From positions 11,566,382-11,630,381 of the forward strand of contig CM049317.1 of NCBI GenBank assembly GCA_026874595.1: a stretch of 64,000 nucleotides of DNA, given 5' to 3'. The notes below the pieces were generated by a model. That model saw only the letters and a list, made by a program, of their open reading frames with translations, did not search any database and had not been told where the DNA came from. The stretch is from Sipunculus nudus. Taxonomy: Eukaryota > Annelida > Sipuncula > Golfingiida > Sipunculidae. Below are positions 24,677 to 61,199 of this stretch, piece after piece; the first letter of the stretch is position 1; each line of letters begins with the position of its first letter. The translations under genes and the position numbers were made by a program.

Positions 24677-27139
24677 AACAAAGGACCTGTGGGTTACGGC
24701 GCTCAGCTGAAATTGATTATGAGAATATTTTTATATATACCTAACATATGGAAATGTGGCAACAGTTAGCCTCCCATGATTAAATATTTCAATAAGTATC
24801 GGTATATGACTGAAGTGACTGTAATATGCATGTAAATAATTAAAAGGAAGAAAGTGGAGATGAGTTGATCAAATTATAATAATACACCTTGAATTTATCA
24901 ACTGAAATAAGGGGGCGTTAAAAATAATCAAAATTTTCAATATTCCAGATCAGATAAGTGTGATATCCATTTGTAATTCCGAACTGGGGCTTTCATTTTG
25001 AAACAAATATGTGGGCAGATGGCCTCTGTGACCTTGACCTTTGACCTCTTGATCCCCAAATCAAACATTTTCTTCCGCAATTGGCAGGTGAGCAAAATTT
25101 GAAAGATGGGAGGTTTAGGATAAAAGTTTGGCTTAAAATGCATCCACAATCTTTTTTAAAGAAATGGATCCCGTGACCTTGATCTTTTACCTCATGACCC
25201 CAAAATCAAAATTGTTTTTACTTTAGTGATGGGCCATATATTAGTCAAGTTTAAATTGATATGTCATCCAAACCGTATTAATTATCGGGTAACAAATATG
25301 TGGACACACAAAAAGACGATCAGATGGACAGACGGATGGATGGACAAGGTGATTACAATAGGGCATCCACTTATTCAAGCGGGCCCAAATATCACACAAG
25401 ATTTCAGGACACTAGATGGTACCATAGTTGCAAATTTGACAGTTCATTTATCCATATAATTTTGCAGTCTTTAAATAAAGGGAGAAAAATCATTAAAAAT
25501 AGAAAAAATACAGGTGGCGCCACCAGTCTTTAGGAACTGAAGAAACCAGTCATAATCATTATCACACTAGGTTTCTTCAGTTCCTGATGAAACGACATTC
25601 GATAAACTGACATTATTGCTATCAATTAGAGGTCACAAAATCAGAAAAAAATCATAAAAATTAGGAAATGTGCAAGTGGCGCCACCAGTTTTCGGGAACT
25701 GACAAACCTTGTCCTTGTCAATATCTAAGGCACGATTCAGGGCTATCCATTCATTAATTATCAAAATAAAGTCGAGCCCGCTTATTGTCATTTCGGTGGT
25801 ACATGCTTATATTATGATAATAATCGGGATGTGATATCATGCGGGCTTCAACATCGATGTCTTCTTGAGTCATAGAATAAGCGTTATGTTTCACATGATA
25901 TTTAATAAATTGTCAATAAAAAGGAAACAGAAACGATAATTAAATTTTTATTGCATTACAGCATATCAAATAACGTGTATGCCCACCTGACAATTTATTT
26001 CCAATAATTTTTGTGCCGTATGTAGCATTAACTGACCAAATTCTGATTTGACAACAGAAAGTGACGTAGCGTCATTTCACAAGGTCTGGAAATATTCGGC
26101 ACAGTTACAACGTTATGCAAAGGCAGACTATTTTACCAGATAATTCTTGCACTTTTCTGACTCTTGTATCTTATTTTCCGATTGTTTTACTAATAACCGA
26201 AACTTTCATGATCAGTTCGTCTTTATGATAGGACTGCATGTTCGAGCAGCAGGCATCGTCAAACGATTGTCAAGTTTCACGGCGATTGAGGTTTTTGATC
26301 GACAATCGCTTCCACTTCTCTCAAAACCTCCAGCTTTTCGTGGAACCTCAAAGGGGATTACCAGCCGTTAATTAACACCGTTAACAGCTCGTGCTTCATA
26401 AAATATCGGCGAAACGTGACTGAGGTGTAAGCTGCGACCTTGCAAAGGTCAGGAGTTCATCATGTATGGCATATGATCGCAAACATTGCCCTTGTTAACG
26501 TACGAAGAAACGCAATGATCTTGATTAACGTGGTTTATTAAGACATTAATTAAACTAAGTGTCGGTCGGTGACCCGCATGCATCACTGCACTTGCCTGCC
26601 GCGCACAGGAGGGAGGTGAAATGGTGTGATACGCCTGACCGATTACAGGCTCATGGCCTCTCCGATCTTTGTAACGGCGTTAAATGTGATATTAACTTCC
26701 AACTGGTATCACTAAAAAGGGTACCAAGCATGACAATAAACGGGATCATGACAATATTCCATGATATTAAACGGTCAGATTGCATATATAGGAAATGGTT
26801 TTGAATTTCCGATTTATGTGACAATAAAGAATTTTCTGGTAACCGATATGACACAAAGTGGGACTTGACTGTACTTGAGGTTTTGTATCAATTTTTTCAT
26901 TATTCTGCGGGGTACTTACTTAGCCCCATAACTCGGAGGATATAGGTCACAGTGCCCTAATTTCAGGTCCCCAGGAGTTTTTTTTCTATTGACCTCCCTG
27001 GATATTCAGTTACAGGTTTCTAGGTCCTACGGTGTCAAAACATGCCAGTCTAACAGACAGAAAGACAGGTGGACGTACGGACGGATGGACGCTGACCGAT
27101 CACTTTAGGTCAGTTGACTTACAGTCATCTGAACTAAAA
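24677..27139 (-). mobile_element. Hairpin-ended dispersed element, copy B
   Basis: Minus-strand orientation. The left end at 27139 reads TTTTAGTTCAGATGACT, then the inverted arm AAGTCAACTGACCTAAAG and a TCCGTCCGTACG run. The right end at 24677 reads CAGCTGAGCGCCGTAACCC, then ACAGGTCCTTTGTT. The body contains one intact and one decayed unit of the ACCTTGACCTTTGACC phrase (25029, 25173) and two GGTGGCGCCACC-type palindromes. No coding capacity. Confidence 0.7.
25513..25585. repeat. Palindrome plus perfect 16-bp hairpin inside copy B
   Basis: GGTGGCGCCACC (25513-25524) is a perfect palindrome. Just after it, AGGAACTGAAGAAACC (25532-25547) is matched exactly by its reverse complement at 25570-25585 with a 22-nt loop. 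GTGGCGCCACC recurs at 25675 and 39542. Confidence 0.9.
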
Positions 27140-27387
27140 GCATTCGAAAGATTAGATGAGACGGGCGTAATTTCACTTAGCCTTAAATTGATTAAAGCAC
27201 AGTCATGCAATTACTGTTGCTGGTAACCGCATATTTGTTTTAATATAAAGATTTGCTTATGAAGAAATTAATGTGATGTTTATTGATAATTCTACATTTC
27301 ATTAGTTTTGATCCTGCAAATATGATATTTTTTATTTATTAATCTTGTACAACTGATAATTCTAACTGCAATTAAACATGCGAAATG

Positions 27388-27453
<66 letters not shown>

Positions 27454-29004
27454 TTTAATTGACTTTGCAAAATATTTCAGCCCCGTCCCCTCCACCAATC
27501 CTGGCTACGCCCGTGGATTAGATTGATTGAACAGATTAGATTAGATAGATTTGATAAATATAAAAGATTGATTTTTAAGATGCATTGATAAAATACAATA
27601 ACAGATAATATAGACGCAAAAGACTAGATTAAATTGGATTACACAGATTAGGCAGATAAAACATATAAATTATTATATAATTTGACGCCAGGTGGCAGTA
27701 CCTATCCTAGATATGGCAATTTAGCCATGTGGCCAGAATACTTGAGTCTTATTTACTTTTCCAGCTGCACTAGTCTACAGTTTGGTTAGTACACCAGTAC
27801 GTAATACTCCCCAAGGCCGCCACATATTTTTACTTGTCTGACACGCATGCTTATATTTTCATGTCGGGAAGTATACAAATATACCCTATTACATGCATAA
27901 AGAAAAACTCTCATCTCCCCATGTGAGAAAAAAAAAACCCACACGCTATCGGCCACAAGTTGTCCACGTGCGTGCCTGAAACTATAGGGCCGTATTGCCC
28001 CAGTTGTTAGTCTCCGTAAAGCTCGCGTATGGGGCATGGCTGAATCTAAATAAAAGCTTACCTATGCACCTGAGGGGTTTGCAGAGTTCATCAATTAACT
28101 TTATTCATTTACATGTTCGACATTTCGGAGTTTAATTGAATTATTCAACCTTATTGCAACTATAACAAGATAAGAACTATCTGTGGAATTGCGATATGAT
28201 GTGTTCATTATTCTGGACTGTGAGATTTGAATTCCAGGCTTGTTTTTTTTAACTATATGGCATATGTAAGAATGTGCATATAAAAATAGACGTTATAGAT
28301 TAATCACTTTTGCAGTATAATATATGTAGAAGCATATATATATATAATTTGTTCGGCTAAATTGTTTTATTAAATCAAGCCTGCTAGCTTTTCTTTTTTT
28401 CCAAAACTGGCACGAATATTAAGTATACGACATAGAATATAAACTATTGTACCACATTTTTGCAATCCTGTCAAAAGGGGTTACGTAAGGCGCATGTCTC
28501 CCATTTCTACCTAAACTATTCTGAAAATTACAAATATAAGCGTTAAGAGCACCGTAAATTGTGCATAATGCTCCCGTCGCATATTATGTGACCTCTGACC
28601 TCATAAAACATGCGTGAATTTTGCTGAGAATGTAATTCAAACTGTATTGGTAATTTTTTATGACGAGTTTCATGAAAACCCATAAGATTTTTGGTTAGTC
28701 ATCACGGGCCACAAAAGTATGAAGACCTCTGACCTCATTAAATATGCAAGGATTTTGCATGATGGATACAATATAATATGCGAATACGGTAGGCTATAAT
28801 ATGCAAATACGTGCAATTTAATTACGTCACGCGGTGCATGGAGCTCGCAATATTTCAAGAGTGACTGAATGAACCCAGCTGAATGAATGAGTTTAATCTA
28901 GCGTTCCGACCGGTGTTTTTACTCAGGATATACATTTACCCTCTGGTTTCTAAATCGGGGGTATAAGAGGAAAATTTAGGGTATAATTTTAGTTAATATT
29001 CAAA
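27140..29004. other. intergenic stretch with one (AT)n tract
   Basis: AT run at 27389-27451, followed by a CCCCTCCACCAATCCTGGC motif resembling a dispersed repeat end. Otherwise nothing recognised. Confidence 0.4.
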
Positions 29005-29265
29005 TTCACAGGGCGCACGAAATAAATATCGCGTGCGAACGAGGTAGTAACGCGTGCTCACGGAATAACTAGCGTGCGCACGAGAAAATATTTCTTAAGC
29101 ACGCGATAGGTATTCCATGTGCACGCGTTACTGTCTATTGCGCACGAGATGGTGTCTCATGCGCACGAAATAACATAATGTTATGGATCCCACTCCCAGC
29201 AATCGTAGTGTTCGTGTGCGAATGCGTTTCGCGATAGTATATAGTATACCGTGCGCACGAAATGA
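29005..29265. repeat. Array of GTGCGCACGA palindromic motifs
   Basis: About ten diverged copies of CGTGCGCACGARATAA, in both orientations, about 20-25 bp apart. CpG-dense in an AT-rich context. Similar single motifs occur at 16036-16130. Confidence 0.75.
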
Positions 29266-31073: not shown

Positions 31074-32574
31074 TTTTTAGCTCAGCTGACTATAAGTCAT
31101 CTGAGCTATAGTCGTTGTCCATTGTCCGTCGTCCTTCCGTCTGTCTGTCCGTCCGTCTGTCCGGATGTCCGTCCGTAATACTGGCACGTTTCGACACTGT
31201 TGGACCTACGAATCTGAAATTCGGCATACAGTTTTTGTCCCCAAAATCTCCTACCATGCCGAAAATTGGGTCAATAGGAATTCGTTCCTTCGAGATATTA
31301 AGGAAAAACCTCAATTTTTTATTAGAAATCTATTTTCACACTTCAGGACTGCCTAATATCAAAATCACTCATCTGGTTTTCTTCATATTTACCATAAATA
31401 TTCCTCTATATAGTTCCTATGTACATGCCAGATATTAAGTCAGTACTATATAATTTAAAAAAAGTAATGGGCCCAAACATAATGGACTTTGTAAAAAAAT
31501 CAGGAAGATATTTGGTCACTTAAGACCAAAAGTGTTAAAGGTAGGGACTTTTTTTCCAGTAATACAACTTTAATTAATCAAAATTTAATTGTATACCAAA
31601 AATTAGATCAAAATCTGTTATTTTTTTTTAAATATTGGCAAAAATATAAAATTGGTACCTTAAATTTTGCCAAACTTTGGCCACGGCACGTTTTTTTTCC
31701 TGTAAGTACTGTGGATTTAATTTTCACAGCATGTATACATAAGGATTTAATCTGTTAAAATCTGAAAATTGAAAATAAAAGCTGCAAAATTAGGCTAGTT
31801 ATTGAATTTTTTTGGAGGCTCTTGTTGTATTCCCTTACATTGTCAAGCAGTCCACTTTGATGACTGTAGGTCATTTAGTGCACATCTCTATGCTCCCCAG
31901 GCTGTTGGCATAATTTTAGATGTCCCCAAAATCTCCTACCATACCGAAAATCGGGTCATTAGGACTTTGTTCCTTCGAGATATTAAGGAAAAAACTCCGT
32001 TTTCCATAAAAAGAGCCATTGTTACACTTCAAGGCTGCCTAATATCAAAAGCACTGATCTGTTTTTGATCGTATTTAGTATTCACATTCTTTCATACATT
32101 TTCTGTGAACATACCAAAAATTAGGTCAGTATTGGGTATTATTTTGAAGTTATGGGCCAAAACATAATGCAATTTTTTTAAAAATCAGGATATATATTTA
32201 CTCACTTAACATGAGAATTGCTGAACCTAGAGACTTTTTTTTCAGGAATATAACTTTATTTAATCAAGATTCAATTGTTTACCCAAAATTAGATCTGAAT
32301 TTTGCAAATTTTTCAAGTAATTAGCACAAATAAAAAATCAATACCTTAAATTTTGTCCAACTTTAGCACTGTTGATTTAATTTTCACAGCATATATACAT
32401 AAGGATTTGATCTTTTAAAATCTGAAATTTCAAAGAAATTGATTGGAAAAAATAGCTTTTATTCATGTTTTCATACACCATGTCAAGTGTTGTTAAATCT
32501 AGCCCACCTAGTAGTAGCTTGCCTTGGGTCAGCTTGGCCACTACCAACAGGCTTCCCCTCTGCCCTGCATTCCA

Positions 32575-32592
32575 CCCCCCCCCCCCCCCCCC
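32575..32592. repeat. 18-nt C run in copy C
   Basis: Pure C run in the part of copy C that is absent from copy E. Confidence 0.9.
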
Positions 32593-33104
32593 GATGGTGC
32601 ATAAACTAGATGAATGTTATTATTTTCTGTATTTGATTCATTCTTATTCTAGGCTATGCTACATTTTAGATTTTGTATTGTACCACCAGGGTTACAATGA
32701 TTAAAGTGTACATTTAATTGTGTCCACAAAGTGGTGTATTGCTATGAAAGTGTGGATGTTCATGAGATAAGTAATTCCTTACTTCAGAAGAGTAAAAACT
32801 TCACCAGGTGTGAAACTGACTATTAATTCCAGTAATAAATTAAAACTGGGATAGTAATTAGCACAATGATATTGTTTGTCCCTCATTCAACCAACAGTGT
32901 GTATACTTTATTTGAATAGATGTTTTATTTTATCAAATTTACTGAATCTTTTATTTTATTTTGGTGAATAAAATTAAGCATGTACTTGTAGATGCCATGT
33001 TGTGGCATTATTTTCTTTTAAATTCAGTTTAAACATTTATGATTTAAAAATAATAAAATATATGTGTATGCATAATATGATCCAATATTAGCTACACTCT
33101 GGAT

Positions 33105-33230
33105 ATATGATGATTGCAACTTTTGCAACAATTCTAATATTTTAACTTATAGTTTCAGTTTTTTACTCTGTATATATAATGATTGCAACTTTTGCAACAA
33201 TTCTAATATTTTAACTTATATTTTCAGGGT
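33105..33230. repeat. 60-bp tandem duplication in copy C
   Basis: The segment around ATGATTGCAACTTTTGCAAC and AATTCTAATATTTTAACTTA occurs twice in a row with few differences. Copy E has a single decayed version. Confidence 0.85.
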
Positions 33231-34238
33231 TTTTTTTTATTAAAAATTTTTAAAACCTGTAAATAAAAAAATGCTTCAGATAAAAACTTCTTAATGGAAA
33301 AAGTGGATATGCTGAAAAAAAAATAGGATTATATATAAACTTAAATGCATTATTCCCTTGAAAGTGAAATAAAGGTATTGGTCCATTCTGTCCACTTGCC
33401 TGTCCATCTGTAAATTTGCATATGCATCACAGTATCTCAAAACTTTTCCTGTTTTTCTTCATGGCAGTCTTGTCAGAGTATTAGTTTGCAATCATGTATT
33501 TAGAACTTTACTATAACCAAGTAGGAGGGCCCCTTTCCTCTTAGCTTTTCATATTCTTATATAAATGAAAAACATTACAATAGAATATTTCTACATCCAC
33601 CTTCGTGCTGCCCTCACTTTTCCCTTCTCCGAACCCCATCCCAAAGTCAGCCTCAATAAGCAAGAACAAGATGAATCAGATATATTCATACTTTAATATT
33701 TTGTATAACTATTCGTCCATAGGTACCTATGTACATGCCAGAAATTATGTCAATATTGTGTAATTTGTAGACATAGTGGGCATCACAATAATGTACCTTG
33801 TCAAGACTAAAGAGATATTGTGTCATACAGTCACAAATTCATAAATCACTTCATCAGCATAGTTAATCATAACATCATATCTGTCAAATTGAAAGCTTGC
33901 AGACTACCATACACTTTAGATCCTTCAACAAATAGCCTTATCATCATTCTACTTCTGCTTATTACTGCTGTCATTGCATTCATATTTGCTCAAATATATC
34001 ACAATTTTCAACCCCTCCTAAATAAATAAAAAATAAACCACTATATTTGACTCTATTAATCCATCAGTCAGGTAATTTCATTTATCATTTACTCACATAT
34101 TACATTACATTCCTTTATAATAGCCCAACATGTCCATGATATTCATAAGCTTTATCGACTCGATATAGTATCACAGTGGAGAAACATTTATAGTCCAATC
34201 ACGATCAGCTGAGCGCCGTGACCCATGGGTCCCTTGTT

Positions 34239-35800: not shown

Positions 35801-38236
35801 ACAAGTGACCCATGGGTCATGACGCTCAGCTGCCAAGCATGACCTGTGACATCATGGACTGAGATTCACAACTTCCAGTCAAATTTTGAAGAACCAATTT
35901 GCCAATTTGTTGAAAATTTTCTATGACAACAGAAACATATATCACCTATGTCTGGTTAAAACACAGTGAATTGATGGTCTGAGGAAAATGCATGATTGTT
36001 AAGCTATCAGGAACTATTCCAACAGCTTGCTTGAAACCTGTCAGTCTCAAAAGGAACACCACAAAGGGCAAATATAAGATCAAAATATATAGCAAAAATC
36101 AAGGAAATACATGCAAGAATTATTGAGAAACAGGTGCTTCTGTGTGAATTTTTATTCAATACAAGCCAACTGTACTGCACTTTTATAAATGATGGTAATA
36201 TTTATTCAGAAATATTTGACCCAATCCTTTACAAGATTACATAAATATACATCCAACTGCATTCACTTTAACTGTTCTTGAGATAAAATGATCAAAAGGA
36301 ATTAAAAGATGGTTGCCTGGTGTCCATATTGGACTTTTGACAAGTCTGAAATCAGACAACAAACATTCTCTAAATCGGACCAAACATTAAAGAAAATTTA
36401 CTGAAACTGCACTGAAGAGAGAATTTCTAAGGTTGCTAACTGGCAGACATAATGGATTTCTGACAAGTATGACATTTGATATACCACATTCTCCAATAAG
36501 AGACCAAACTTGGGGCAAATTATCCAGTAATGGATGCCCAAAATAATTCAAAAGGCATGTCCAGGCCCTCATATCAGATTTAAAGATATGCAATTGTAAA
36601 AAGTGTAAGTCCTATATTTTTTATTATCACTCTGCTTTTCAATGGGGTCAGCAGGGTAGGTAAACTGCCAAACCTGAAAGAAAAGAAATGCAGAAAGCAT
36701 GACTAAGAGTCTTGAAATAAAACAAAAAGCCATCCTAAATCAAGGTACACATCAACATATTATGAGAACAAACACTTGCTTTTATATGTGGTGATTTATA
36801 TTAAAATATTCAGATATCTAGGAAACTAAGTTTATTGCTAGGATTCCATAAAATAAACTGCAAAATGTTCCCATCATCTTATAAATCAGTAGCAAAACCT
36901 TAATACTATACTCTCATAGTCTTAATGCCTGGCTGAAGCATTCTGACAACAGTGTTTTTGTTATGAAGTAACGAGGTACTTATCACTGAGCCTTATCGCT
37001 TAATAGGCTGATACAAAAGGGAGTCATATGTCACCAGTGTCACTCACAATTACAGCCACACAGGGAGATGTACCAGCTGGAGTGGGATGGTTATATATAC
37101 AAGAAAAATAGAGATGGTCTATAAAATAAGTAATTGTGAACATCCCTGACCTATGACCTTGGCCTTTTGCCCATATATCAACTGGATTCTTTCTAAATGA
37201 TGGGTAACTACTAACCACTTAAATCTGGTGTAATTACTTGGCAACCAATGGGTGAATAACTTTGACCTGCAACCTTTAACCTGCTGACCAGCTGACCCCA
37301 AAATCAATAAGTTATTTATTCAAGCAAAAAGACCCATAAATATGAAGTTTGAGTCAAACTGAATGATGCATAGATGTGGCATATGTGAAACACTGAAGGT
37401 TTGGGTTGAACAGTTACACTTGAAATATACTCACAAGCATTTAGAACAATTAAATATTGTGACCTTGACCTTTGACTTTTTGACCTCAACATCAATAGGC
37501 TTCTTCCCTTATTGGTAGGTAAGCCATATATGACAGATGGAAGGTACAGATTGAAAAATTTGCCTGAAAAAGACTCCACGCAAGAAGTGGGTGCTGTGAA
37601 CTTGACCTTTGACATCAAAATCAACAGGTCTTTTCCCCTGTTGGCAGAGAAGCGATATCAGTGCTGGAAGGTTTGGAATGAAAAGTCTAGCTTGAAATGT
37701 GTCCACAACCTTTTCAAAGATGTGGATCCTGTGACCCTGACCTTTGACCTTGTGACCTCAACATCTATAGGATTCTTCTCCAACTTAGTAGGTGAGCTAT
37801 ATGTGAAAGATCAAAGAATTGGGATGAAAGGGTTGGCTAAAAATGCATCCACAGGCTTTTCAAAGAAGAGGCTCCTGTGACCTTGACCTTTGACCTTTTG
37901 ACCTAAAAAAATATGGTTCTTCCCCTGTTGGTAGGTGAGCTGTATGTGAAAGATGGAAGGTTTGGGATGAAAATTTTGTCTCAAAGAGTTATTTCTGGGG
38001 GGTGCAAACACACCCCATAACTTCGAGAATATAGGTCGCAGTGACCTAATTTCAGGTTTGCAAGGAGATCTTTTTATAACCTCTAAGACTGCATAGGGTT
38101 CATGGCCCTAGTCCCTACGGTTATGATTTGTGCCCTGCTAACGGACGGACGGCCGGCCGGACGGACAGACGGAAGGACGACGGACAAAGACCCATCGCTA
38201 TAGCCCAGCATGACTGAAAGTCAGCTGAGCTAAAAA
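35801..38236 (-). mobile_element. Hairpin-ended dispersed element, copy D
   Basis: Minus-strand orientation. The left end at 38236 reads TTTTTAGCTCAGCTGACT, then AGTCATGCTGGGCTATAG and TCCGTCCGGCCGGCCG. The right end at 35801 reads CAGCTGAGCGTCATGACCC with ATGGGTCACTTGTA. Its part nearest the left end is an array of about 140-bp units (37400-38010), each with a TGACCTTTGACC-type phrase. No coding capacity. Confidence 0.75.
37400..38010. repeat. 140-bp tandem units carrying nuclear-receptor-like sites
   Basis: Units recur at about 37460, 37600, 37731 and 37877. Each reads (GTG)ACCTTGACCTTTGACC, then a phrase on TTCTTCCCCTGTTGGTAGGTG and AAAGATGGAAGGTTTGGGAT. A further decayed unit lies near 37258. 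Single related units occur in copy B. Confidence 0.85.
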
Positions 38237-38749: not shown

Positions 38750-39850
38750 TCTAGGAGTTATTCCGTTTAAACATCATTTTAGCAAGAAAACAACATAAGG
38801 TGGCACCACTTGTCTTCTGCAGAAAACAATGCTATCAAAGATCTTATGTCAATTTGATTTTTTGACCAATCCATGCATCCCTCAGTGAGATAGTAAACAT
38901 CATTCCAGCGTTATCGCCTCTGTAAACTTGAAAAATGCATCAAGGTCATCCATATTCGAACTTGGCCTAGCCCTTTATAAGATGCACCTAAACTGTAGGT
39001 TTGGTGACGGTACCACAAATTCTTTTTGAGTTATTGCCCTAATATCATTTTGGGATAATCGCTGCTGTGACCTTGAAAAAATGCATCAAGGTCATCAATG
39101 TTCGAACTTGACCTAGCCATTGATAAGATGCATCAAACCTGTGGGTTTGGTGACTGTACATCAAATTCTTACAAAGTTATTGCGTTAACATCATTTTAAC
39201 AAGAAAACGACACAAGGCTGCGCCACCTGTCTTCTGCAAAAGACAAAGCTATCCAAGATCTTCGGTCAGTTTGATTTTTGGATCATTCCATGTATCCTTA
39301 CTGAGATATTAAAGATTTTGTGTGAATTTCACCAAATTTGGGAATATTCAAGGTCAAGGCTACTCTCATAGGAAAGGTCATGACCCCAATTTAAATAAAC
39401 ATCATCCCATAACCCATATCTATGTATATGCATAATATAAAATAAATCTGTCCATTAGTTTTTGACTTATAATGCTCACAATACTGTCAAGTGGCAATTT
39501 CGGGGGTATGAAAAGGCACGAAAACAAGTAAAGAATAATAGGTGGCGCCACCAGTTTCTGGAACATAACAACCCGATCCATGATCTTCCATCAACTTGAT
39601 TTTGGGATCAATCCATGCAAGATTTCTTGAGATATTTAAGATTTTGTGTGATTTTCCCCAAAATTTGGACCTATACAATGTCATGGACACTCTCCTAGTA
39701 AAGGTCATGACCTCATTTTAAATAGGCATCGTCCTCTCACCCATATTTATACATATACCAAGTTTGGTAAAGATCCGTGAAATATTTTTTGAGTTATCGC
39801 GCCAACAGGATTTATATATGGCGGCGGGACCGGTATGAAAACATAGTATC
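38750..39850. repeat. Diverged tandem repeats with GGTGGCGCCACC motif
   Basis: Three related blocks start near 38800, 39210 and 39535. Each has a GGTGG(C/T)NCCAC motif followed by CTTNTGNA...GATCTT and TCAATTTGATTTT-like phrases. Phrases on ATGCATCAAGGTCATC recur at 38938 and 39080. Related to the interior of copy B. Confidence 0.7.
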
Positions 39851-41625: not shown

Positions 41626-45703
<4,078 letters not shown>

Positions 45704-46316
45704 TTTGTCTGCAAGGTATTATGAAAATCTGGTTATGGAGCCCTGTCTTAATATAATAGGACATTTGTGTTGTTTCCTAATAAGTAATATATCTAATCTT
45801 TGATCTTGAATTGTTTTAATGCGGATCCCTTCACTTTAATTTTTTAAAAAACTAAGTGCACAGTTACAAGTACAATGATACAAAACAATGAACGGTGTGG
45901 TTGTTAACTTGAATTAAGCTGCATAATGCATTACATTAAATAATTATGTATATAGAATATGGCAGGTTTTTTACTGAAACAGAACCAAGGCTCTGCAGCA
46001 CAAGCAACCAATAGAAGAAAACACTTTTCAAAACTGACAGAAATCAGCATGAACAAAGAGAGAAGAAATATATCACTTGAAAATCATAGCAAAGACCATG
46101 AAAAATGTGGGAAAATAAGGAGCAAAGGGCCTGGAGTGACATGTCTGTTCCTGTTTTGGCCCAAGTTTAGGTAAGCTCAGATGTGAATTCAGAAGTGCCT
46201 TGAATATTAAGTCAACCTGTAATTTAACTGTAAAAGTAAAAAAAAATGAATGTGAAGTATGACATATTCAACACATGGATCAGCCATTATAATCTCTCGG
46301 GTGTTTAACTCATTAA

Positions 46317-46337
46317 CCCCCCCCCCCCCCCCCCCCT
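46317..46337. repeat. 21-nt C run in NACA intron 1
   Basis: Pure C run about 410 bp downstream of the predicted NACA 5' exon. Confidence 0.9.
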
Positions 46338-46750
46338 AAAAAATATCTTTCCGAGTTTCCCGCACTTCCAGTTTGACAGTTCAGTGTAACAATGTAAACA
46401 CAACCGGAAACGCCGAATATAAACTTAATATTTTACATTTATCTCGCCATGAACTACATTTCAATCACGAGACACAACTGTACTCCTCGTCCAGAAAACG
46501 TAAACGCACGTGCAGCCAGGTACTGGGGTTAGCTACCCTGCGATTACACCTGCTCCTATCATGTTACACGAACTTGCCAGAAACCCCGTGTTAGGATCTC
46601 TACAGGAAATCTTAATCCCGGGGTAAATGTTGGAAATATGATGTGTTTGAGATATCTAACATGATGTTCAGTTTATTTCTTTTCAAATATGAAAGTTGAC
46701 AAGAACAAATTCGGCCGATGGTTAAGGATTTAGGATACCAAAACACTCAC

Positions 46751-46800
46751 AGTTTGGATGTCGAGCGTGACTTCCACAACAGTGACTCTGGAAAGGAAGT
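46751..46800 (-). other. NACA: NACA non-coding first exon (predicted)
   Basis: Ends AACT before GTGAGTG, a good donor, matching the acceptor CTTGCAG at 45709-45715. Upstream the minus strand reads CTTCCTTTCCAG, a pyrimidine tract like the 5' TOP start of translation-factor mRNAs. The start near 46800 is inferred from that. Confidence 0.55.
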
Positions 46801-48197
46801 AGATTGTCGTCACTTCCCAATGATTAATTCACTCTTCTGTGAAGAAGTCGAAAAGGGAAGCAATGCGCGATTAACCGCAATCCAGTTACGCTGAAGTTGT
46901 CTATAATGAATTAGTAATTACAGTTATTCTGCTATTTTATAATGTGTCCTTTGATCCTGTACATCGCATATACGTTATATCCTAATTTATGTACGAATTA
47001 TACACAAATTTGATTCATAATTTAAATTGGAATTAAGGTAATATCATCCAACTAGATTGCATTTAATACATTCCATAATTTACACATGGCGACCTGACAA
47101 CCCAGTGTAAACACAGGTAGGTACCAAGTGGTGTCTATACTGACCATAGCTTGTGTTGTCTTGTGATTTTATGTCATTCGTTCATGTTTACATAAAATAT
47201 TTAGATAACGTTGATTTGTGCTTTCTTCCGACGGAACATATTCGGCAATTTAGCAGGACAGTGGAAAAACTGTACCTTAATAAATAATGTGTACAAGTTC
47301 CTATAGTGGCTATACTGTGAAAGTCATCCGGTCAGAAGCGTCAAAATATTTAGTTATAGACGGAATACTATAATACATGGCTGATTAATAATATATGTCA
47401 GAAGTGTGGGAACTGGTGTAAATTTTTATAACTCCAAAGTTATTCAGGGAAAGTAAGGTTTACTTTAACCAGTCGTCTGTCATAAATGACGGAAGAAATT
47501 GATGCAGAGTGACCGTATCTATCCTAAAAAATTGACCCAATTATTCCTGAGACTGACAACACTAGACATCTCCAGATATATTTGTAACACATAATTCTTG
47601 ACAAAACAAACCATCTGTGCATTCATAAATCCGGTCAATGTTTTAACTTATTCCAGTGATTACCGCTCTGTTACTGGATATATTGCTCTCTGCTTCAGCA
47701 AGCTACAGCGGACCACGGAAGTAACATCCAGCAGACTCGCTTTATCAAAGGCTGTGCCCCTGCTGCGCCTGACACCAAGGCACAATAGGCTCACAATAAA
47801 GTTAATGGGCTTATCAGGTCTTAATTGCAATTAGTGCACAACTGACACTCAAAGCTTCTGATAGTTGAGACTCCAGTCTGTAATCTCCTCGGTATTAGAG
47901 TCAATCAAAGAAAGCATACCTGTAACATTAATAGCTTGAAGGGCACTTGTTCAGAATTCAGCCTACATGCATATCTGCTTGGTAAAAATGAGTGTGGTAG
48001 AGATTGTTGTTTTCCAATAAAGGCCCAATAATCATATTTTCCTCAGAAAATAACATATTTGATTTTGCTCATAGATGGAGTGCATTATATTAAACAAATT
48101 TACAGAAGGATGGTTCCAGGGAACATGGGTCTCCTGCCTGAACAGGGGTGTGGGGGTGGCATTCAAATTAATTTAGCTGTTTTAATACCAGTACAAA
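46801..48197. other. NACA 5' flank
   Basis: No exon could be proven. NACA (minus) and DZANK1 (plus) are arranged head to head across about 5.5 kb that includes this stretch. Confidence 0.4.
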
Positions 48198-49626: not shown

Positions 49627-49639
49627 GGGGGGGGGGGGG
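49627..49639. repeat. 13-nt G run
   Basis: Pure G run in the middle of the inverted-repeat structure. Confidence 0.85.
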
Positions 49640-50679: not shown

Positions 50680-50815
50680 ATCATCAGCCTATTACTATTA
50701 CTATTACTATTATTCAACATTTTTGGACTGCCTATTATCTATTATTGCCTATTACTGATGAAAAGTAATTGAATTACTGCCTATTACTATTATCTATTAC
50801 TATTACCCCATGTCT
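50680..50815. repeat. CCTATTACTATTA repeat, right block
   Basis: Runs of CTATTACTATTAC in the same orientation as the left block, although the flanking sequences are inverted. Confidence 0.85.
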
Positions 50816-51042
50816 GGTGCTCACACTCTCTCCAGATCACCATTGGCAGGGTTTTGGTATAATATCTGAGAATTTACTCACTAAACTTGCAATATTGATA
50901 TTATTTATAGATATAAGTAAGGGTTAAGTTGCATGTTGGTGAGATTTCAAGCAGAAATATGCATGGCAGATTAAGATATTGACATCTGTGGATAAAATTT
51001 CTCCAGCCGGATATCTATGATGTTCAGTCACACCTAAAGGTT

Positions 51043-51929: not shown

Positions 51930-52065
51930 TCCAAGTAAACCTGCAGAGCACTCACCCTCGGTGGAGGCTGACTGTGAAAAATCTCATGGCTCTTTGCTGA
52001 GATTTGAACTCGCAACCTCCAGGGTTTACTTTTAGTCCTGTGCTCTGCCCCTTGACCACATAAGT
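51930..52065 (-). mobile_element. tRNA-derived SINE-like unit
   Basis: The minus strand reads TGGTCAAGGGGCAGAGCACA (A-box-like) and, about 45 nt on, GAGTTCAAATCTCAGC (B-box-like). This is the spacing of a tRNA-type Pol III promoter. No clean cloverleaf acceptor stem, so SINE or tRNA pseudogene rather than tRNA gene. Confidence 0.55.
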
Positions 52066-52304
52066 TGGCAGGATTTGGACTTCTGTCGTTTCATCTGGTG
52101 ATGCTTCATTTAGTATGAATGAGGGTAAGATAAGCTTAGTTCAGGAGGTTTTGATTACCATTCAAGTTTGTACAATATAAATTTATTTTACAAATTTTGA
52201 TAAAAATAATTCAACTTGATTAATTTTAATTTTTGTTTCTGGGTGCCTTAGTGTAAGGAGCTGGTCTAATAATGGCTTGTCTTATGGATTTTACTCATTT
52301 TCAG

Positions 52305-52426
52305 TGCAGACAAGATGCCGTTTGCAGGAGGAATTGTTCCCCCAACTGTGACCCCCTTAAGAAGGCCTGTACCAGGAAAACCGAAGGCCCACATTGATAC
52401 CACCACCTACATTGAGCTTGACACAG
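52305..52426 (+). CDS. DZANK1: DZANK1 first coding exon (residues 1-37)
   Basis: Acceptor TTTTCAG at 52298-52304 implies an upstream non-coding exon. ATG is at 52315. Ends ACAG before GTGATA, phase 1. Confidence 0.8.
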
Positions 52427-55400
52427 GTGATATATTGTTCTGATATTTTTTATTGAAAAGGAAATATTATTAAAAATATGTACTTTGAAAATATTTGCAT
52501 GCCTTGGAAAAAAATTAAATGAAGTAATTTTAAAAGATCCTGAATATTCAATATTTTCACATTTTGACTTATTGTGATTGTTACCATAAATAACTATGGC
52601 TGTGTGGCATTATATAAGAATGAAAACAGGACCAATCCTCTCATTTGAATAATGAATATTAATAAACATTTTGTGTTGTAAAAATTTGGTAATTTTACCA
52701 GAGTTTCCTGTTTGAGCGTTTGGAGACTTTTGTAGTCCTTTAAATTTTCATTCTATAGATCTTGCATTGGGTTTTGACCCACTCTGGGAAATGATATTTA
52801 TCTGTGTTTGCATGTTTGTTTCTTTAATGTTTAATAAGTTATAAATTGGTTTTGTTTATATGGTGTTTCAGAAACCCCTGATTGTAAGATCTACTTCACA
52901 ACTGATGGGACCAAACCAAATGCCCACCAGCCTAAATTTGCTGGGAGGGAGATCACATTCAAATACAGGGGGCCATTCTCACTCAAATCAGGGAAGAGAA
53001 CTCTAAAGGCAGTGGCAGTATCAAGGTGAGTCATTAAGCGGGTGGCCCAGTGGTTACAGCATTGGACTTTGGAACTAGAGATTCTTAATTCAGATCCCAC
53101 CAGAGCTTGATAGGCAAAAAAATGAAATTGAAAAAAAAGAACAAACTTTAAACATGGTCTCAGTCATGCAGAGTAAAATGATACAGTTTTAGATTTATGC
53201 CAAATATATCCCTCTGTTATCAAATAACCTGTATGTCCTGTAAATTTTAGTTAAAATGTACCAAAGAAAAACCTTTTTTTTTGTGAAACCTTTGATGTGC
53301 TAAAGTTGCCTTCTGTTCCAACTGGACACCAAATTATGGACAAGAAATCTAGAACAAATAATGTTATAAGTCTTTAGTTTACCTAATGTAGGTATGTTAT
53401 ATAGAGTGTTTGTCAGTGTGACCAAGTACAAAAATATAAAATTGCCTGTTAAACCAAATCCTGAAGTAAATATGGATAAATCTATTAAATATTGTTATTC
53501 ATGTAGATGCCTGAAACATGTCAAGGAATTAAGTTTTTAAACTAGCCATGATAAGAGGTTTTCTTTAAATATTAAAAGGAATATGTAGATGTGAAAAAAT
53601 GTTGCAAAAACTTTTTTTAATTAAATGTTGCCAAAACTAATCCCAGACAATCCTGTTAGTATATTTTTTATCTCCAGGGATGGTTTGCAGGAGAGTAACG
53701 TCGTGACCAAGACAATCCTGTTTGTATATTTTTTATCTCCAGGGATGGTTTGCAGGAGAGTAATGTCGTGACCAAGACATTCTTTGTTGAGGATCTTGGG
53801 CCGCCAAATGAAGACGAGGAGCTGTTGTCAAGGGATACCGAGGATGCGGTTGATACTTTGTTTCAGTCTGGTAGAAGATCACGCAATTCAGGAACAGTCA
53901 GCCTCAGGAAAAAGGTGCCTTCAATGGCAATGAAACAAAAAGCAAGTCCACTATGTGATGAACACAGCTCTCTATATTTCTTCTCACCATAAGGTGTACT
54001 CTAAGTGAGCCAGTAAATCTTAAGCTGTCCATGTGTTTCATAATTTTGAAGTCAGTGAGCTGTGAATGTATGCTGTTTAATATATACAACTAAATACTAG
54101 ACAAGTTGTCACAAGTTTATAGATGGCACAAATCTATTTAGAGGAAAACATTGGACAGGTCAGTTCACTACAGTTTGCTAAATAAATTGGAAGAATATTG
54201 AATGGACTGATGAATAAGCACCTGTTGTTCTTGGTGATGTCACTATTATGTTTTGGTTGGATTGACCTATATCTGGGTCAGATCAGTCTGATATATTTTT
54301 AATGCCTCACTTGGAACAGCTCGATTAATAATACAAAGTAGAAAGTTGATATCAAGAAATACATATTCATGTTTGGCAGTATTTGCAAGTCATTTAAGTT
54401 GTGTAAGCTGTGTTGATCATGTATATGTGGCAACATCTGAGGACCCAAAACCTGACCATCCTTATTGTTTTAATAAGTTTGGTGTATCAGATGATGTCAA
54501 GGTCCCAACTGGTTTCTAGCTTTTGACAGAAAATAGTTTCTAGCTTTTGACAGAAAATAGTTTCTAGCTTTTGACAGAAAAAAGTTTCTAGCTTTTGACA
54601 GAAAATAGTTTCTAGCTTTTGACAGAAAAAAGTTTCTAGCTTTTGACAGAAAATATTTTCTAACTTTTGACAGAAAAAAGTTTTTAGCTTTTGACAGGAA
54701 ATAGTTTCTAGCTTTTGACAGAAAATAGTTTCTGGCTTTTGACAGAAAAAAGTTTCAAGCTTTTGACAGAAAATAGGTTCTAGCTTTTGACAGAAAAAAG
54801 TTTTTAGCTTTTGAGAGTAAATAGTTTCTAGCTTTTGACAGAAAATATTTTCTAGCTTTAGACAGAAAAAAGTGTCTAGCTTTGACAGTAAATAGTTTCT
54901 AGCTTTTGACAGAAAATAGTTTCTAGCTTTTAACAGAAAATAGTTTCTAGCTTTTGACAGAAAAAAGTTTCTAGCTTTTGAGAGAAAATAGTTTCTAGCT
55001 TTTGAGAGAAAATAGTTTCTAGCTTTTGAGAGAAAATAGTTTCTAGCTTTAGACAGAAAAAAGTGTCTAGCTTTGACAGTAAATAGTTTCTAGCTTTTGA
55101 CAGAAAATAGTTTTTAGCTTTTAACAGAAAATAGTTTCTAGCTTTTGACAGAAAAAAATTTCTAGCTTTTGAGAGAAAATAGTTTCTAGCTTTTGAGAGA
55201 AAATAGTTTCTAGCTTTTGAGAGAAAATAGTTCCTAGCTTTTGACAGAAAATAGTTTCTTGCTTTTGACAGAAAAAAATTTCTAGCTTTCGACAGAAAAT
55301 AGTTTCTAGCATTTGACAGAAAATAGTTTCTTGCTATTGAGAGAAAATGGTTCCTAGCTTTTGACAGAAAATAGTTTCTAGCATTTGACAGAAAATAGTT

Positions 55401-58400
55401 TCTAGCTTTTGACAGAAAATAGTTTCGAGCTTTTGAAAGAAAATAGTTTCTAGCTTTTGACAGAAAAAAGTTTCTAGCTTTTGACAGAAAATAGTTTCTA
55501 GCTTTTGACAGAAAATAATTTCTAGCTTTTGACAGAAAATAGTTCCTAGCTGTTGAGAGAAAATGGTTCCTAGCTTTTGACAGAAAATAGTTCCTAGCTT
55601 TTGACAGAAAATAGTTTCTAGCTTTTGACAGAAAATTGTTCCTAGCTGCAGAGAGAAAGTAGTTTCTAGCTTTTGACAGAAAAATAGTTTCTAGCTTTTG
55701 ACAGAAAATAGTTCCTAGCTGTTGAGAGAAAATGGTTCCTAGCTTTTGACAGAAAATGGTTTCTAGCATTTGACAGAAAATAGGTCCTAGCTTTCGACAG
55801 AAAATAGTTTCTAGCATTTGACAGAAAATAGTTTCTTGCTTTTGACAGAAAAAAATTTCTAGCTTTTGACAGAAAATAGTTTCTAGCATTTGACAGAAAA
55901 TAGTTTCTAGCTTTTGACAGAAAATAGTTTCGAGCTTTTGAAAGAAAATAGTTTCTAGCTTTTGACAGAAAAAAGTTTCTAGCTTTTGACAGAAAATAGT
56001 TTCTAGCTTTTGACAGAAAATAGTTTCTAGCTTTTGACAGAAAATAGTTCCTAGCTGTTGAGAGAAAATGGTTCCTAGCTTTTGACAGAAAATAGTTCCT
56101 AGCCTTTGACAGAAAATAGTTTCTAGCTTTTGACAGAAAATAGTTCCTAGCTGTTGAGAGAAAATAGTTTCTAGCTTTTGACAGAAAATAGTTTCTAGCT
56201 TTTGACAGAAAATAGTTCCTAGCTATTGAGAGAAAATGGTTCCTAGCTTTTGACAGAAAATGGTTTCTAGCATTTGACAGAAAATAGGTCCTAGCTGTTG
56301 AGAGAAAATAGTTTCTAGCTTTTGACAGAAAATAGTTTCTAGCTTTTGACAGAAAAAAAGTTTCTAGCTTTTACAGTGTAGGCACTGTATAGTTTAATAC
56401 CTGGGGGTTTGATATAGGTTCATCTGACTTATATTTATTGTATGTTTCAGAGGAACCTGAGGAAATCCAGCACTGGTCTGTCTGACGTCATTCCTCTGGA
56501 CAGTCCTAAAGAGGCGTGGGTGTCTGACACGCCCGCCATGGACTACTCAGTCGGTTATACCAATGGCTTTGATGGTCTGTATGGTAAGTACTGTGATAAT
56601 AATAATAATAAAGATTTAATAGTAACAATAATGATAATAAAAATGATAATTGTTATATTAATTATATCTATAATATCAGTATTAAGTATACCATTTATTA
56701 TACTAACTGCATTGATGGTTCATACAGTCAGTAATGTGATAATGATACAGATGTAATATATAATGGTAATATAAAAATAAAAATAATTATATTGATTATA
56801 TCTATAATATCAGTATCACATATACCATTGGTTATACTAATGGCTTTGATGGTCAAAATGGTGAGAACTGTGATAATGAGTATAATAATAATGCTAATAA
56901 TAAAACTAATAAAAAATAATAAAATAATAAATAATAATAATAATAACAATAAATATAATAATGTTTGTGGTATCAGTGAAATCATTATATTCTAGGTTAT
57001 ATAATGCCTATGGTGGTCCACTTGGCAATTACAATTGTAATCATGATTAAAATCATTATATGATAATAATGACTCAATAACTTAATCACTGACTTTTGTT
57101 GATGGAAGTTCATACAAAATTCAGTTAAATTATTACCAGTTAAAACCTGCTTAACTTATACCTGAGATATGTGAAAGTTTCCGCTTGGCCTCATTTACTC
57201 GGCCACAACAATGTTTCCCTACATTAAGATAATTAATGAACAGTGTAAATGGATTGATTTATTGTTTAATATGATTATATTAGGTACTGGAACAGACAGT
57301 CCCCAGCACAGCACAGTCAAGCTGCCAGATGGTGGTGCATACAACCCCACCAACTACTCTGGCACACAGATAAACTTCTGGGGAGTCGCTCCTAATGGTA
57401 TACCTCAGATGTTAGGTAATGGAACGTCCTTGCCATATGGAAATCGACCAAACCAGCTGGGCATGCTGACAGAAAATATGATCAGGGTGAGTATAACACT
57501 AATGTAAAAAGCACTGCCAGTGCACACTGTGGAAGTGGTTCGTTTGGCATGTCCGACTCTTTGTGCTTTTTTTAGCTCAGCTGACTATAAGTCTTCTGAG
57601 CTGTAGTCATGGTCCTTTGTCCGTTGTCCGTCTGGCCGGCCGGCCATCTGTTTACAGGGCACATTTTGTAACCATTAATCCAAAATTTTACATACAATTA
57701 GATGTCCCTAAAATCTCCTACCATGCCGAAATTTGGGGCACTAGGACTTTGTTCCTTTGAGATATTAAAGAAAAACCTCCGTTTTCCATTAAAAACCCAT
57801 TGTTACACTTCAAGAAAGCCTGATATCAAAACCACTGATATGTTTTTTATTATATTTAATATGCATATTTTTGCATACATTTCCTATGTACATACAAAAA
57901 ATTAGGTCAGTATTGTGTAATTTCTTGAAGTTAATGGCCCAAAACATAATGCACTTTTTAAAAAATCAGGAAATATATTTACTCACTTAACATGAGAATT
58001 GCTGAAGCTAGAGACTTTTTTTTTCCGGAATATAACTTTATTTGATCAAGATTCAATTGTAAACCCAAAATTAGATCTAAATTTTTGCAATTTTTTAAGT
58101 TATTAGTATAAATAAAAAAAAAATACCTCAAAATTTGTCCAAATTTGGCCACAGCACATTTTTTCCTTGTAAGCACTGTTGATTAATTTTTCACAGCATA
58201 TATACATAAGGATTTAATCTTTTAAAATCAATGATTAAAGTGAACATTAAATTGTGTCCACAAAGTGGTGTATTAATATAAAGTGTGGATGTTCATCAGA
58301 TAAGGAATTCCTTACTTCAAAAGAGTAAAAACTTCACAAGGTGTGAAATTGAATATTAATTCCAGTAATAAATTAACATAATGATATTGTATGTCCCTCA

Positions 58401-61199
58401 TTCAACCAACAGTGTGTATACTTCATTTGAAAAGATGTTGATATTTTATCAAAATTACTTAATCTTTTATTTCAGTGAATAAAATAAAACATGTACTGAA
58501 AACTCCAGTGTACAAAAGTTTTTTATTGGGATTCAAGGAATAATCTGGAGGATGCCATGTTATTGCATTATTTTCTTTTAAATTCAGTTTAAACATTTGT
58601 GATTTTAAAATAATGAAATATATTTGTATGCATAATATGACCTGATGTGAGCTAAACTCTGGATAAATAATAATGCAACTTATAATTTCTGATATTTTAA
58701 CTTTTATTTTCAGATTTTTTTGCTTACAAAATAATAAAATTGTTAATAAAAAAAATAAATCTGATAAAAACTAATAATGGAATATTGGATATGCTTAAAA
58801 AAATAAAGTACAATATAAATTGAATTGCATAATACCCCTGAAAGCGAAATAAAGGTATCAGTCCATTCTGTCCTCTTGCCTGTCCATCTGTTAAATTTTT
58901 ATGTGCATCACAGTATCTCAAAACTTCACTGTTTTTTTTCATGACAGTCTTGTAAGAGTATTAATTTTGCAATCTTATATTTCTAACTTTACTATAACTA
59001 AGTAGGAGGGCCATTTCCTCTTAGCTTCTCTTATGCTAATATATATGAAAAACATTACAATAGAAATCAGCATATTTTGCATTTGCTAAAATTTCAAACT
59101 TCACGGCTGAGTGCCGGGACCCATGGGTCCCTTGTCAATGTATAGCATTAGCGCAGTTTGAAGTTTTGCGCAAATCAGCATGTTTAGGTGATTCATTTTG
59201 AATCAAATTATTACACTTTTCAAATGATCATATAAAAGATAGGTTTGTAGCACAACCTACTTCCCCATAACAAGCTCTGGTTGAACGCGTATATGGTATA
59301 CAGGCCACTGAATAGGCCTACCGTGAACCCAAGGTGTAAGCAGTATGTAATCAGTTGGATGATGCAATGGTACTGCATCCAGTCAAGTTTTTTGACATCT
59401 GAGTAAGTTGTAGAATTGCTAAACAAAAACAACTGTGATTATTAATTAGAAACAGCCCATTATATGTTAACAACAAACAGAGCTGACAAAAATCGTGGCT
59501 GGCTCTCAGTCGTACTTTAAGGGGGGGGGGGGTCGGAAGTTGTCTAGGTTGTATGAAATAATGCATGTTCTTAATTTAGCGCAAATGCACCCCATGCTAA
59601 AAGCGCCATAGTTAAAACCCTGCTAACAAAACCACTTCCACAGTATCTATCTGACAGCCAAAATTATAAAGGCTTTAAGCTTGTGGCACTAACACCACCA
59701 CCAGTTAGTCTGAACAAAGGTATTAACCTTTTGTGACACTCACTCATGTATAAAGACAAGCAAGGCCATTCAAACCTTACAGGTTTTTAACTGGTCTTAT
59801 GATTCACTTCATAAATATAAAACCTTCCTTGGTAGTGCCTCATTAATAGTATTAAATTTTGAAATCTGATGTCAGCATTAGGGTACAGTTATAAGTGTTG
59901 ACAAGCAAAGTGAGCAGTGAATTTTGCACCAGAGGTTAGTATCAGCTGCAGTTTTATTTTAATGAAACACATGTACTACAAAATATAAAAGAGAGGACAA
60001 GGGAGAACAAAGTCACCTTTCTCTTCTGTTGAATTGTTTATAATGCTGATCTTTACAGAAGATTTAATAATTTGTATTATACTGTGGAACATTTTATTAT
60101 TGTTTTAATTATACATAACTAATTTATTACAGAGCCTTGAACAGCCAAAAATAACACAAGAGGACATGAAAAGAATGCTTGAGGAACAAGCTCGTCAGCA
60201 GGCCCCACCACCAGAGCCAAAAATTGTAGAGGTTCCAGTCCATAAGGACCCAGAGCTCACAGACAAGAGCCCAGGACATGGTATAGTTCATGGATCCTAA
60301 TACTTTGACATTTTCATTTGTATACCATCTGTAAAATATTTTGTTTTTTTTTTTCCCCTGTTTGTTAGTACTTATCAGCTATTGATGCTGAAAACATCTA
60401 GGTGTTCACCTTTCCAACAGATTGGTCATAGTTCCTTTCTGTGCATTTGTTTATCTGTCTGAGACGGGTTGAAAGGTGTAATTTGGCCCTTGTCGTTCAT
60501 AGTCAGCATTTATAGCTTATTACAGAAGTATTCTTTTAGCAATTTATGATGTTGTCTGTTTCACAAAAAAAAATCATCATTTTTTTACACAAGAGCCACA
60601 TGCTTTCTAATACTGTTCTGTTCAACAGATATCATTTATTGTTAGTTAATTGTTATTTTAGTTTTTAATCAGTTTGTTATTTGATATGTTTGTTTCTGTT
60701 TCACAAACACTTAAACAAAACACAGGTTTTTATCTGTTAAAAATTGTCAGAATGCATGAAGCAAGGTATTTTAAATTTTTAACACAGGTTACCTTCAAAT
60801 GTGAGTGTGTACAGATTCCATGATTTTACCCATAAATTGAGGTAAATATAAATCTTTATTTTACAGTGTAAAATGTAATATTTTCTGATTATACTACATA
60901 ACTTTTATTTACAGTGTATTGGTTACTTAAATATCTCACAGATGTTTTGAATTTCTGGTCATAGCACCATTGAACTGCAATTTATAAATATTTCAATCAT
61001 TATGTCTGACTTTTTCACCCCACAGTGTGCATGCAGATGTCAGATACACTAGTATTGTGAAACTCAATGTGTCAGTTATTTTTTTATTATTTTAGGTGAC
61101 TGGAAAGGAAATCTACAGCATATATATGCTCACCTGATAGAGCAGTGTAAGAACGATGTCAGGTTCAGGACTGCTGTTGGTCAGCCACAGGTTACAAAG
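52315..61199 (+). CDS. DZANK1: DZANK1 homologue, first seven coding exons (partial)
   Basis: Exons are 52315-52426, 52872-53025, 53743-53914, 56451-56583, 57284-57486, 60133-60280 and 61096-61199. All are GT-AG with agreeing phases, giving 342 codons and no stop; the remainder lies to the right. The N-terminus (GGIVPPTVTPLRRPVPGKPK, then TPDCKIYFTTDGTKPN and GKRTLKAVAVSRDG) matches the start of DZANK1, a beta-rich domain like those C-terminal in chitobiases. The zinc ribbons and ankyrin repeats that name the family are not yet reached. Exon 7 (GDWKGNLQHIYAHLIEQ) also resembles the family. The vertebrate protein works with NINL and dynein in photoreceptor/ciliary transport. Start: first ATG of the exon, A at -3. 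Introns hold a large minisatellite, a SINE-like unit, a dispersed element and duplicated splice regions. Confidence 0.82.
52872..53025 (+). CDS. DZANK1: DZANK1 coding exon 2
   Basis: Acceptor GTTTCAG and donor GTGAGT (phase 2). Encodes the beta-rich domain core IYFTTDGTKPN through TLKAVAVS. Confidence 0.88.
53030..53110 (+). mobile_element. tRNA-like SINE unit beside a splice donor
   Basis: GGGTGGCCCAGTGGTTACAG contains an A-box consensus (TGGCCCAGTGG). AATTCAGATCCCACC is B-box-like about 40 nt on. It begins within about 10-15 nt of the exon 2 donor. Confidence 0.5.
53645..53774 (+). repeat. 65-bp tandem duplication over an exon acceptor
   Basis: Copies 53645-53709 and 53710-53774 differ at about two positions. 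Each contains a polypyrimidine tract, TATCTCCAG and the first 32 nt of coding exon 3. Only the second acceptor (exon from 53743) keeps the frame; use of the first (from 53678) leads to a stop. Confidence 0.95.
53743..53914 (+). CDS. DZANK1: DZANK1 coding exon 3
   Basis: Acceptor TATCTCCAG (second of two duplicated). Reads DGLQESNVVTKTFFVED, then an acidic and Ser/Arg-rich segment. The donor AAG before GTGCCT is weak; it was chosen because phase 0 joins cleanly to exon 4. The open frame also runs on to a stop near 53990. Confidence 0.75.
54515..56375. repeat. 24-bp minisatellite in DZANK1 intron, about 77 units
   Basis: Unit TAGTTTCTAGCTTTTGACAG plus AAAA. Variants include TTGAGAGAAAA, AGCATTTGACAG, AGCTGTTGAGAG and CCTAGC. 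A block with a shortened 23-bp unit (marker AGTGTCTAGCTTTGACAGTA) recurs 191 bp apart (54871, 55062), showing higher-order duplication. Because 24 is a multiple of three, the minus strand stays open for 319 codons as a KARNYFLS octapeptide repeat; this is not taken as a gene. Confidence 0.95.
56451..56583 (+). CDS. DZANK1: DZANK1 coding exon 4
   Basis: Acceptor TATGTTTCAG just after the minisatellite; donor GTAAGTA, phase 1. Encodes RNLRKSSTGLSDVIPLDS through YTNGFDGLY. Confidence 0.78.
56690..57040 (+). repeat. Decayed copies of exon 4's end and donor
   Basis: The exon 4 phrase GGTTATACCAATGGCTTTGA plus its donor recurs in the intron near 56694 (poor), 56830 (good, with its own GTGAGA donor) and 56994 (poor). 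The copies are separated by AT-rich TAA/AAT repeats. Period roughly 135-165 bp. Confidence 0.75.
57284..57486 (+). CDS. DZANK1: DZANK1 coding exon 5
   Basis: Acceptor TATATTAG, donor GTGAGT, phase 0. Gly/Asn/Pro-rich: TGTDSPQHSTVKLPDGG through QLGMLTENMIR. Confidence 0.78.
57567..59133 (+). mobile_element. Hairpin-ended dispersed element, copy E, in DZANK1 intron
   Basis: Left end TTTTTTAGCTCAGCTGACT, ATA, AGTCTTCTGAGCTGTAG, then GTCCGTCTGGCCGGCCGG. Right end CGGCTGAGTGCCGGGACC with CATGGGTCCCTTGT. Most of the body is colinear with copy C (31920-34238), missing about 1 kb, including one of the two internal units. Same strand as the host gene. Confidence 0.75.
59521..59532. repeat. 12-nt G run
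   Basis: Pure G run in the DZANK1 intron downstream of copy E. Confidence 0.85.
60133..60280 (+). CDS. DZANK1: DZANK1 coding exon 6
   Basis: Acceptor TTATTACAG, donor GTATAG, phase 1. Encodes SLEQPKITQEDMKRMLEEQA, then a Pro/Glu-rich linker. Confidence 0.8.
61096..61199 (+). CDS. DZANK1: DZANK1 coding exon 7 (last seen)
   Basis: Acceptor TTATTTTAG, donor GTAGGA, phase 0. Encodes GDWKGNLQHIYAHLIEQCKN and AVGQPQVTK. The following exon was not found in this window. Confidence 0.8.

Follow-up and report, generated by a model that had tools for sequence, protein, structure and literature searches.

Probable HINEs of a Helentron-type family occur in very high number in the genome of Sipunculus nudus

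Five elements, E1 to E5, in a 64,000-nucleotide stretch of the Sipunculus nudus genome (C12:11566382-11630381; hereafter the window) are very probably HINEs, that is, non-autonomous elements belonging to a rolling-circle transposon family of the Helentron type (Helitron2-like). Their anatomy has already been published for other animals, and the elements described here are best classed with this known kind, which is present in very high number in a genome of 1.43 Gb (153 contigs). This reading is based on ends that are paired in a preferred relative orientation, on the combination of subterminal inverted repeats (subTIRs), an inverted repeat (IR), a GTCC microsatellite and a 3' palindrome, on insertion into T runs free of target site duplication (TSD) at the resolved sites, on the very high copy number, on the lack of any recognised domain in the tested ORFs, and on the Helentron-type protein genes of the same genome.

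An earlier reading of the window (the sequence-only reading) had proposed a dispersed family of five copies with common ends, two of them inverted. Scans for the end motifs against shuffled sequence confirm that the five elements are real, and the inverted copies are E2 and E4 as claimed (Table 1). The borders of the elements were set from the insertion borders TAGC...CTTGT, which were resolved at empty sites elsewhere in the genome. All five elements have in common the 5' hairpin end TAGCTCAGCTGACT...AGTCATCTGAGCTA. Each left end begins with TAG[C/T]TC and forms an imperfect hairpin, and each folds better than its shuffles (z from -2.99 to -6.22). Allowing up to 3 mismatches, the left motif had 12 matches in the window, whereas shuffles averaged 3.28 and never exceeded 8; the two arms of the hairpin are matched at 3068/3085, 27106/27123, 31078/31095 and 57573/57590, and a single arm at 38219. 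A GTCC-type microsatellite lies within about 70 bp of the left end in all five elements, which agrees with the TCCGTCC run reported by the sequence-only reading. An alignment of 22 left-end sequences had a mean identity of 89%, and these ends are therefore too conserved for covariation in the left stem to be usable.

Table 1 Positions of the five elements and their parts, in window coordinates.
Feature	Position	Strand	Details
E1	3068 to ~3722	+	degenerate; ~0.65 kb; right edge approximate
E1 left hairpin	3068-3098	+	GTCC tract 3117-3133
E1 probable right subTIR	3692-3700	+	palindrome 3701-3717
E2	24678..27136	-	2.46 kb; central repeat in common with E4
E2 left hairpin	27106-27136	-	GTCC tract 27079-27092
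E2 right subTIR	24701-24709	-	palindrome decayed
Second HINE-like left end within E2	25330..25390	-	hairpin GGGCCCGCTTGAATAAGTGGATGCCC then GTCCATCCATCCGTCTGTCC
E3	31078..34237	+	3.16 kb; CTTGT end
E3 left hairpin	31078-31108	+	GTCC tract 31123-31176
E3 right subTIR	34206-34214	+	palindrome 34220-34231
E4	35801..38232	-	2.43 kb
E4 left hairpin	about 38202-38232	-	GTCC/ACGG tract 38141-38185
E4 degenerate repeats	37395-37985	-	roughly 143 bp
E4 right subTIR	35824-35832	-	palindrome 35807-35818
E5	57573..59135	+	1.56 kb; body in common with E3
E5 left hairpin	57573-57603	+	GTCC tract around 57623-57633
E5 right subTIR	59104-59112	+	two changes; palindrome 59118-59129

The right motif had 4 matches in the window with up to 3 mismatches versus 0 in 100 shuffles. 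GCTCAGCTG at the left end and CAGCTGAGC at the right end are one motif that is inverted between the ends, and its core of 9-10 bp is identical in the best copies; the pair is exact in E3 and E4, with changes in the left ends of E1 and E2 and two changes in the right end of E5. The 3' end of E2 to E5 consists of CAGCTGAGC, followed by a palindrome and then by TTGT. A right end had been claimed for four copies with one palindrome common to them: it is present in E2 to E5, while the palindrome GACCCATGGGTC is exact in three of these (E3, E4 and E5), decayed in E2, and replaced by other sequence in E1. By itself GACCCATGGGTC was not found beyond chance in the window at up to 2 mismatches (3 matches, a number also attained by 19 of 100 shuffles), and it carries weight by its position only, between the 3' subTIR and the end. 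The copy placed at 3064, which had been left out of the four, has a probable right end as well (3692-3717), where CAGCTGAGC at 3692 is followed by an unrelated hairpin (CTTCATG-tac-CATGAAG); a TTGT terminus is not recognisable in E1, and this element probably has both ends. Taken in isolation, the right ends of E2, E3 and E4 showed no folding advantage over shuffles and those of E1 and E5 only a modest one (z of -1.81 each), which counts against the HINE reading. A generic scan for hairpins plus inverted repeats gave 20 hairpins and 9 pairs in the window versus 0-4 and 0-1 in 20 shuffles, figures that we do not rely on as most of the extra matches are AT microsatellites and gapped hairpins are missed.

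The bodies of the elements had been described as differing in length and content, which does not apply to all of them. E3 and E5 are 75-84% identical across most of E5, and E2 and E4 have a central repeat in common and a left region of 68% identity; one of the E4 repeats, which are spaced at roughly 143 bp, recurs in E2. The claim that no copy codes for a transposase agrees with our search of six ORFs of at least 90 aa (stop to stop) in E2 to E5, none of which had a Pfam match above the cut-off; there was one sub-threshold match, to DUF4325 (E=0.093). The second left end inside E2 has a hairpin and GTCC but a sequence unlike that of E2's own left end; no right end of its own was recognisable, and it may belong to another family, as a nested element or as part of a chimera. 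A palindromic short repeat around GGTGGCGCCACC is exact at 25513 and 39541, has one change at 25676 and more changes at 38800, and also adjoins a right end at another locus (L048); it is possibly part of another repeat family.

Outside the elements, the window contains a 44-bp minisatellite of ~39 copies (4210-5937; 93% matches, strong GC skew) that starts ~0.5 kb past E1, and a tandem array of ~78 copies of a 24-bp unit (54512-56376) that yields repetitive ORFs of up to 430 aa from stop to stop. An exon of myo-inositol-1-phosphate synthase lies at 13007-13459 on the minus strand (PF07994, E=3.3e-32). An open frame of 382 aa that resembles reverse transcriptase (20207-21352, plus strand; PF00078, E=0.00018, under the cut-off) is probably a piece of a non-LTR element. 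An open frame of 404 aa (62335-63549, plus strand) is GC-rich, with 57% GC versus ~35% just before it, and Pfam gave no significant match for it.

Counted across the whole genome, as had been proposed, both end motifs are far above reversed controls. The right-end motif had 47,139 matches with up to 3 mismatches (49 for the control) and the full left hairpin had 43,760 (0 for the control), a total in which some sites may figure twice, once per strand, as the hairpin is near-palindromic. Multiplying 43,000-47,000 ends by roughly 2.4 kb gives an order of 100 Mb of genome, as a rough estimate and not a measurement. The elements may thus make up a substantial share of this genome, for which a classification is thereby supplied, and the exact borders (TAGC...CTTGT) and target (TTTT^T) are usable for annotation. 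Two overlapping GC-rich, phage-like contigs from a viral contig scan carry the right-end string and no left end, and we rejected these matches as chance.

The sequence-only reading had named inconsistent co-occurrence of the two ends as the observation that would speak against the family, and we found that the ends do pair in a consistent orientation. In 20 stretches of ~10 kb around exact right ends (~9 kb read in each), the left end nearest to the right end agreed with it in orientation in 15 and was opposite to it in 2, and 3 stretches had no left end (binomial p=0.0012). This sample is small and local, with all 20 stretches at C1:1.2-5.8 Mb and two pairs of them overlapping, and its anchors come from a list that is incomplete for the minus strand. 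Twelve of the 15 same-orientation pairs lie 0.4-3.3 kb apart. The three right ends with no left end and the two with an opposite one nearest count against the HINE reading; one of the two opposite left ends is an 8-mismatch match, and one of the three stretches (L031) has an exact left end on the same strand a little beyond its limits, at C1:1236645. Two loci, L035 and L044, contain stacks of several left and right ends, all in one orientation in L044, and these look like copies nested within copies.

Since several copies are nested in other repeats, natural empty sites could be obtained by comparing the joined flanks of a copy with uninterrupted copies of the host repeat. Of 48 candidate pairs, eight gave a match across the junction. 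When the element is delimited as TAGC...CTTGT, the T run of the host is split 4+1 in L050, 4+2 in L035, and 4+1 and 5+3 in L044, with nothing duplicated: the uninterrupted host runs have 5, 6, 5 and 8 Ts, equal to the sum of the left and right flanking Ts, and ordinary substitutions are found nearby. Two further sites are off by one base, with one different base in the run (L036) or one host base missing (L034), and two matches were left out of the empty-site count, namely L041, which matches its own flank, and a second pairing in L044, which is weak (79%). Among 27 distinct contexts of GGGTCCCTTGT, 25 have T as the next base (26 of 28 before duplicate removal). At the resolved sites, none of which is a window copy, insertion is between TTTT and T(n) with no target duplication.

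Proteins suited to such elements are encoded in the same genome. Helitron_like_N gave 143 matches among the 150 scored of 195 candidates, and seven open frames of more than 2,200 aa have this domain, each also with a PIF1 match for which the frame length is the same. At one of these loci (L014, C11:50.38 Mb), DUF6570, OTU and Helitron_like_N are followed downstream in the same reading frame by an Exo_endo_phos domain (E=1.1e-9) that ends in a stop codon, where the frame link is coordinate arithmetic across an intervening 1.7 kb that was not read. The Exo_endo_phos endonuclease domain is a hallmark of Helentrons. We conclude, from these domain matches, that the genome has predicted genes for Helentron-type proteins (DUF6570-OTU-Rep-PIF1-endonuclease). 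The longer coding copy that had been suggested as a target of search was not found with these ends in the loci examined, and this lack of a coding copy counts against the HINE reading. Neither HINE end is present in 20 Rep loci of 3.4-3.6 kb each, both are absent from two stretches (1.0 and 1.2 kb) at and past the 3' terminus of a Helentron ORF, and Rep loci and HINE loci have no DNA in common by blastn. A search of the HINE loci with the Rep part gave no match up to an E of 1; there, the endonuclease part had weak matches only (L004, L005 and L044; E of 0.017-0.34), and it matched no PDB sequence at an E of 0.01 or less. In one Helentron copy, the stretch past the stop codon of the endonuclease (L051, L052) contains degenerate repeats with pieces that are 74-84% identical.

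The source of the transposition protein could instead be a Helitron2 or proto-Helentron that has no endonuclease domain, and not a true Helentron, which we regard as unlikely while giving it some weight. PMC5148889 gives TTTT^T as the Helitron2 target and names asymmetric inverted repeats and a hairpin at each terminus as Helitron2 traits; however, the sole locus with a C-terminus read ends in the Exo_endo_phos domain, and the HINE anatomy with a GTCY microsatellite is one reported for Helentron derivatives (PMC7492417, PMC4067079). Far less probable is a family of MITEs or fold-back elements belonging to a TIR (DDE) DNA transposon. Such a family would account for a short inverted repeat common to both ends and for the lack of a recognised coding domain, but the repeats here are subterminal and asymmetric (in E3, 2 nt from the left edge versus 23 nt from the right edge), TSDs are absent at the resolved empty sites, and no consistent direct repeat was found at the window copies. 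Canonical Helitrons (Helitron1), which according to PMC4067079 and PMC5148889 have a 5' TC, a 3' CTRR with a hairpin (~11 bp upstream) and insertion between A and T, can be set aside with near certainty, since hairpins near the ends, variable bodies and the absence of TSDs at resolved sites fit them but the present elements have TAGC as their 5' end and CTTGT as their 3' end, insert within oligo-T (TTTT^T), and carry paired subTIRs. The hint at Helitrons in the sequence-only reading was sound in seeing a dispersed family that is Helitron-like and has a hairpin at each end, while its 3' end was, by analogy with HINEs, misassigned: the CTAA taken as a Helitron-like 3' mark on the other strand is merely the complement of TTAG at the left edge. 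By the same analogy, the hairpin-bearing left end would be 5' and the side with the palindrome (GACCCATGGGTCCCTTGT) would be 3'.

Under the HINE reading, autonomous Helentrons of the same genome would make a Rep-helicase-endonuclease protein that recognises the 5' subTIR and hairpin together with the 3' subTIR and palindrome. This protein would peel off or copy one strand of the element, and the strand would then be inserted in an oligo-T target between TTTT and T with no target duplication.

Among the first 100 exact matches listed for the two end motifs, same-strand blocks of up to ~1 Mb, with runs well below those of shuffles, gave the appearance of megabase orientation domains. We rejected these as an artefact because the exact-match lists are incomplete by strand: a second list has 37 sites on C1 below 18.8 Mb, all of which contain the right-end search motif, and 26 of them are in the right-end list, with the 11 missing all on the minus strand. 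One exact minus-strand left end is likewise absent from the left-end list. A runs test on the second list was not significant (44 runs versus 50.7 expected, fraction 0.11). Orientation was the same in 76% of 25 pairs 5-100 kb apart versus 50% of 44 pairs at 100-300 kb, where the pairs are not independent and completeness of the list was checked on 7 of 7 sites in the sampled loci. It is improbable that HINEs insert with a local strand preference and so build same-orientation nested clusters; same-strand stacks such as that in L044 accord with such a preference. If true, it would fit single-strand integration in T-rich DNA with one of its strands exposed, as at replication forks, for instance.

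Literature text searches with the longer end-sequence strings found no paper, and those with shorter strings gave, among the matches listed, unrelated titles. Comparison with published elements was by modules, as described in passages of the sources. HINE/DINE-1 elements of Drosophila, a mite and Culex are described in PMC4067079 as having subTIRs, a stem loop at the 3' end and, optionally, central repeats; DINE-1 also has a microsatellite and, close to the 5' subTIR, an IR. They insert in T-rich sequence and leave the target unmodified. The elements described here are like them in having subTIRs, an IR by the 5' subTIR, a microsatellite, central repeats in some copies, a 3' subTIR followed by a palindrome near the 3' end, a T-rich target with no TSD, and no coding capacity, whereas the subTIR sequence differs. 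The core of 9-10 bp falls below the at least 11 bp of identical subTIRs in the naming rule given there, a rule that names families and not the class. Unlike mite HINEs, with a core of 12-15 bp and a 3' subTIR 38-60 nt from the edge, the present elements have this shorter core and a distance of 23 nt, and both differences count against the HINE reading. Helitron2/FoHeli elements, as PMC5148889 describes them, have asymmetric inverted repeats, hairpins at both termini and TTTT/T insertion, all of which are found here; in contrast to them, the copies found with our ends are non-coding only, and the sole genome protein with a C-terminus read has an endonuclease domain. Cg_HINE of the Pacific oyster, for which PMC7492417 describes the same modules with GTCY/GTCC microsatellites, differs in that E3 and E5 lack a clear array of short central repeats, and resembles the present elements, by module description, in its left-flank GTCY/GTCC microsatellite, the IR of its left module, the palindrome of its right module, and its insertion in oligo-T without a TSD.
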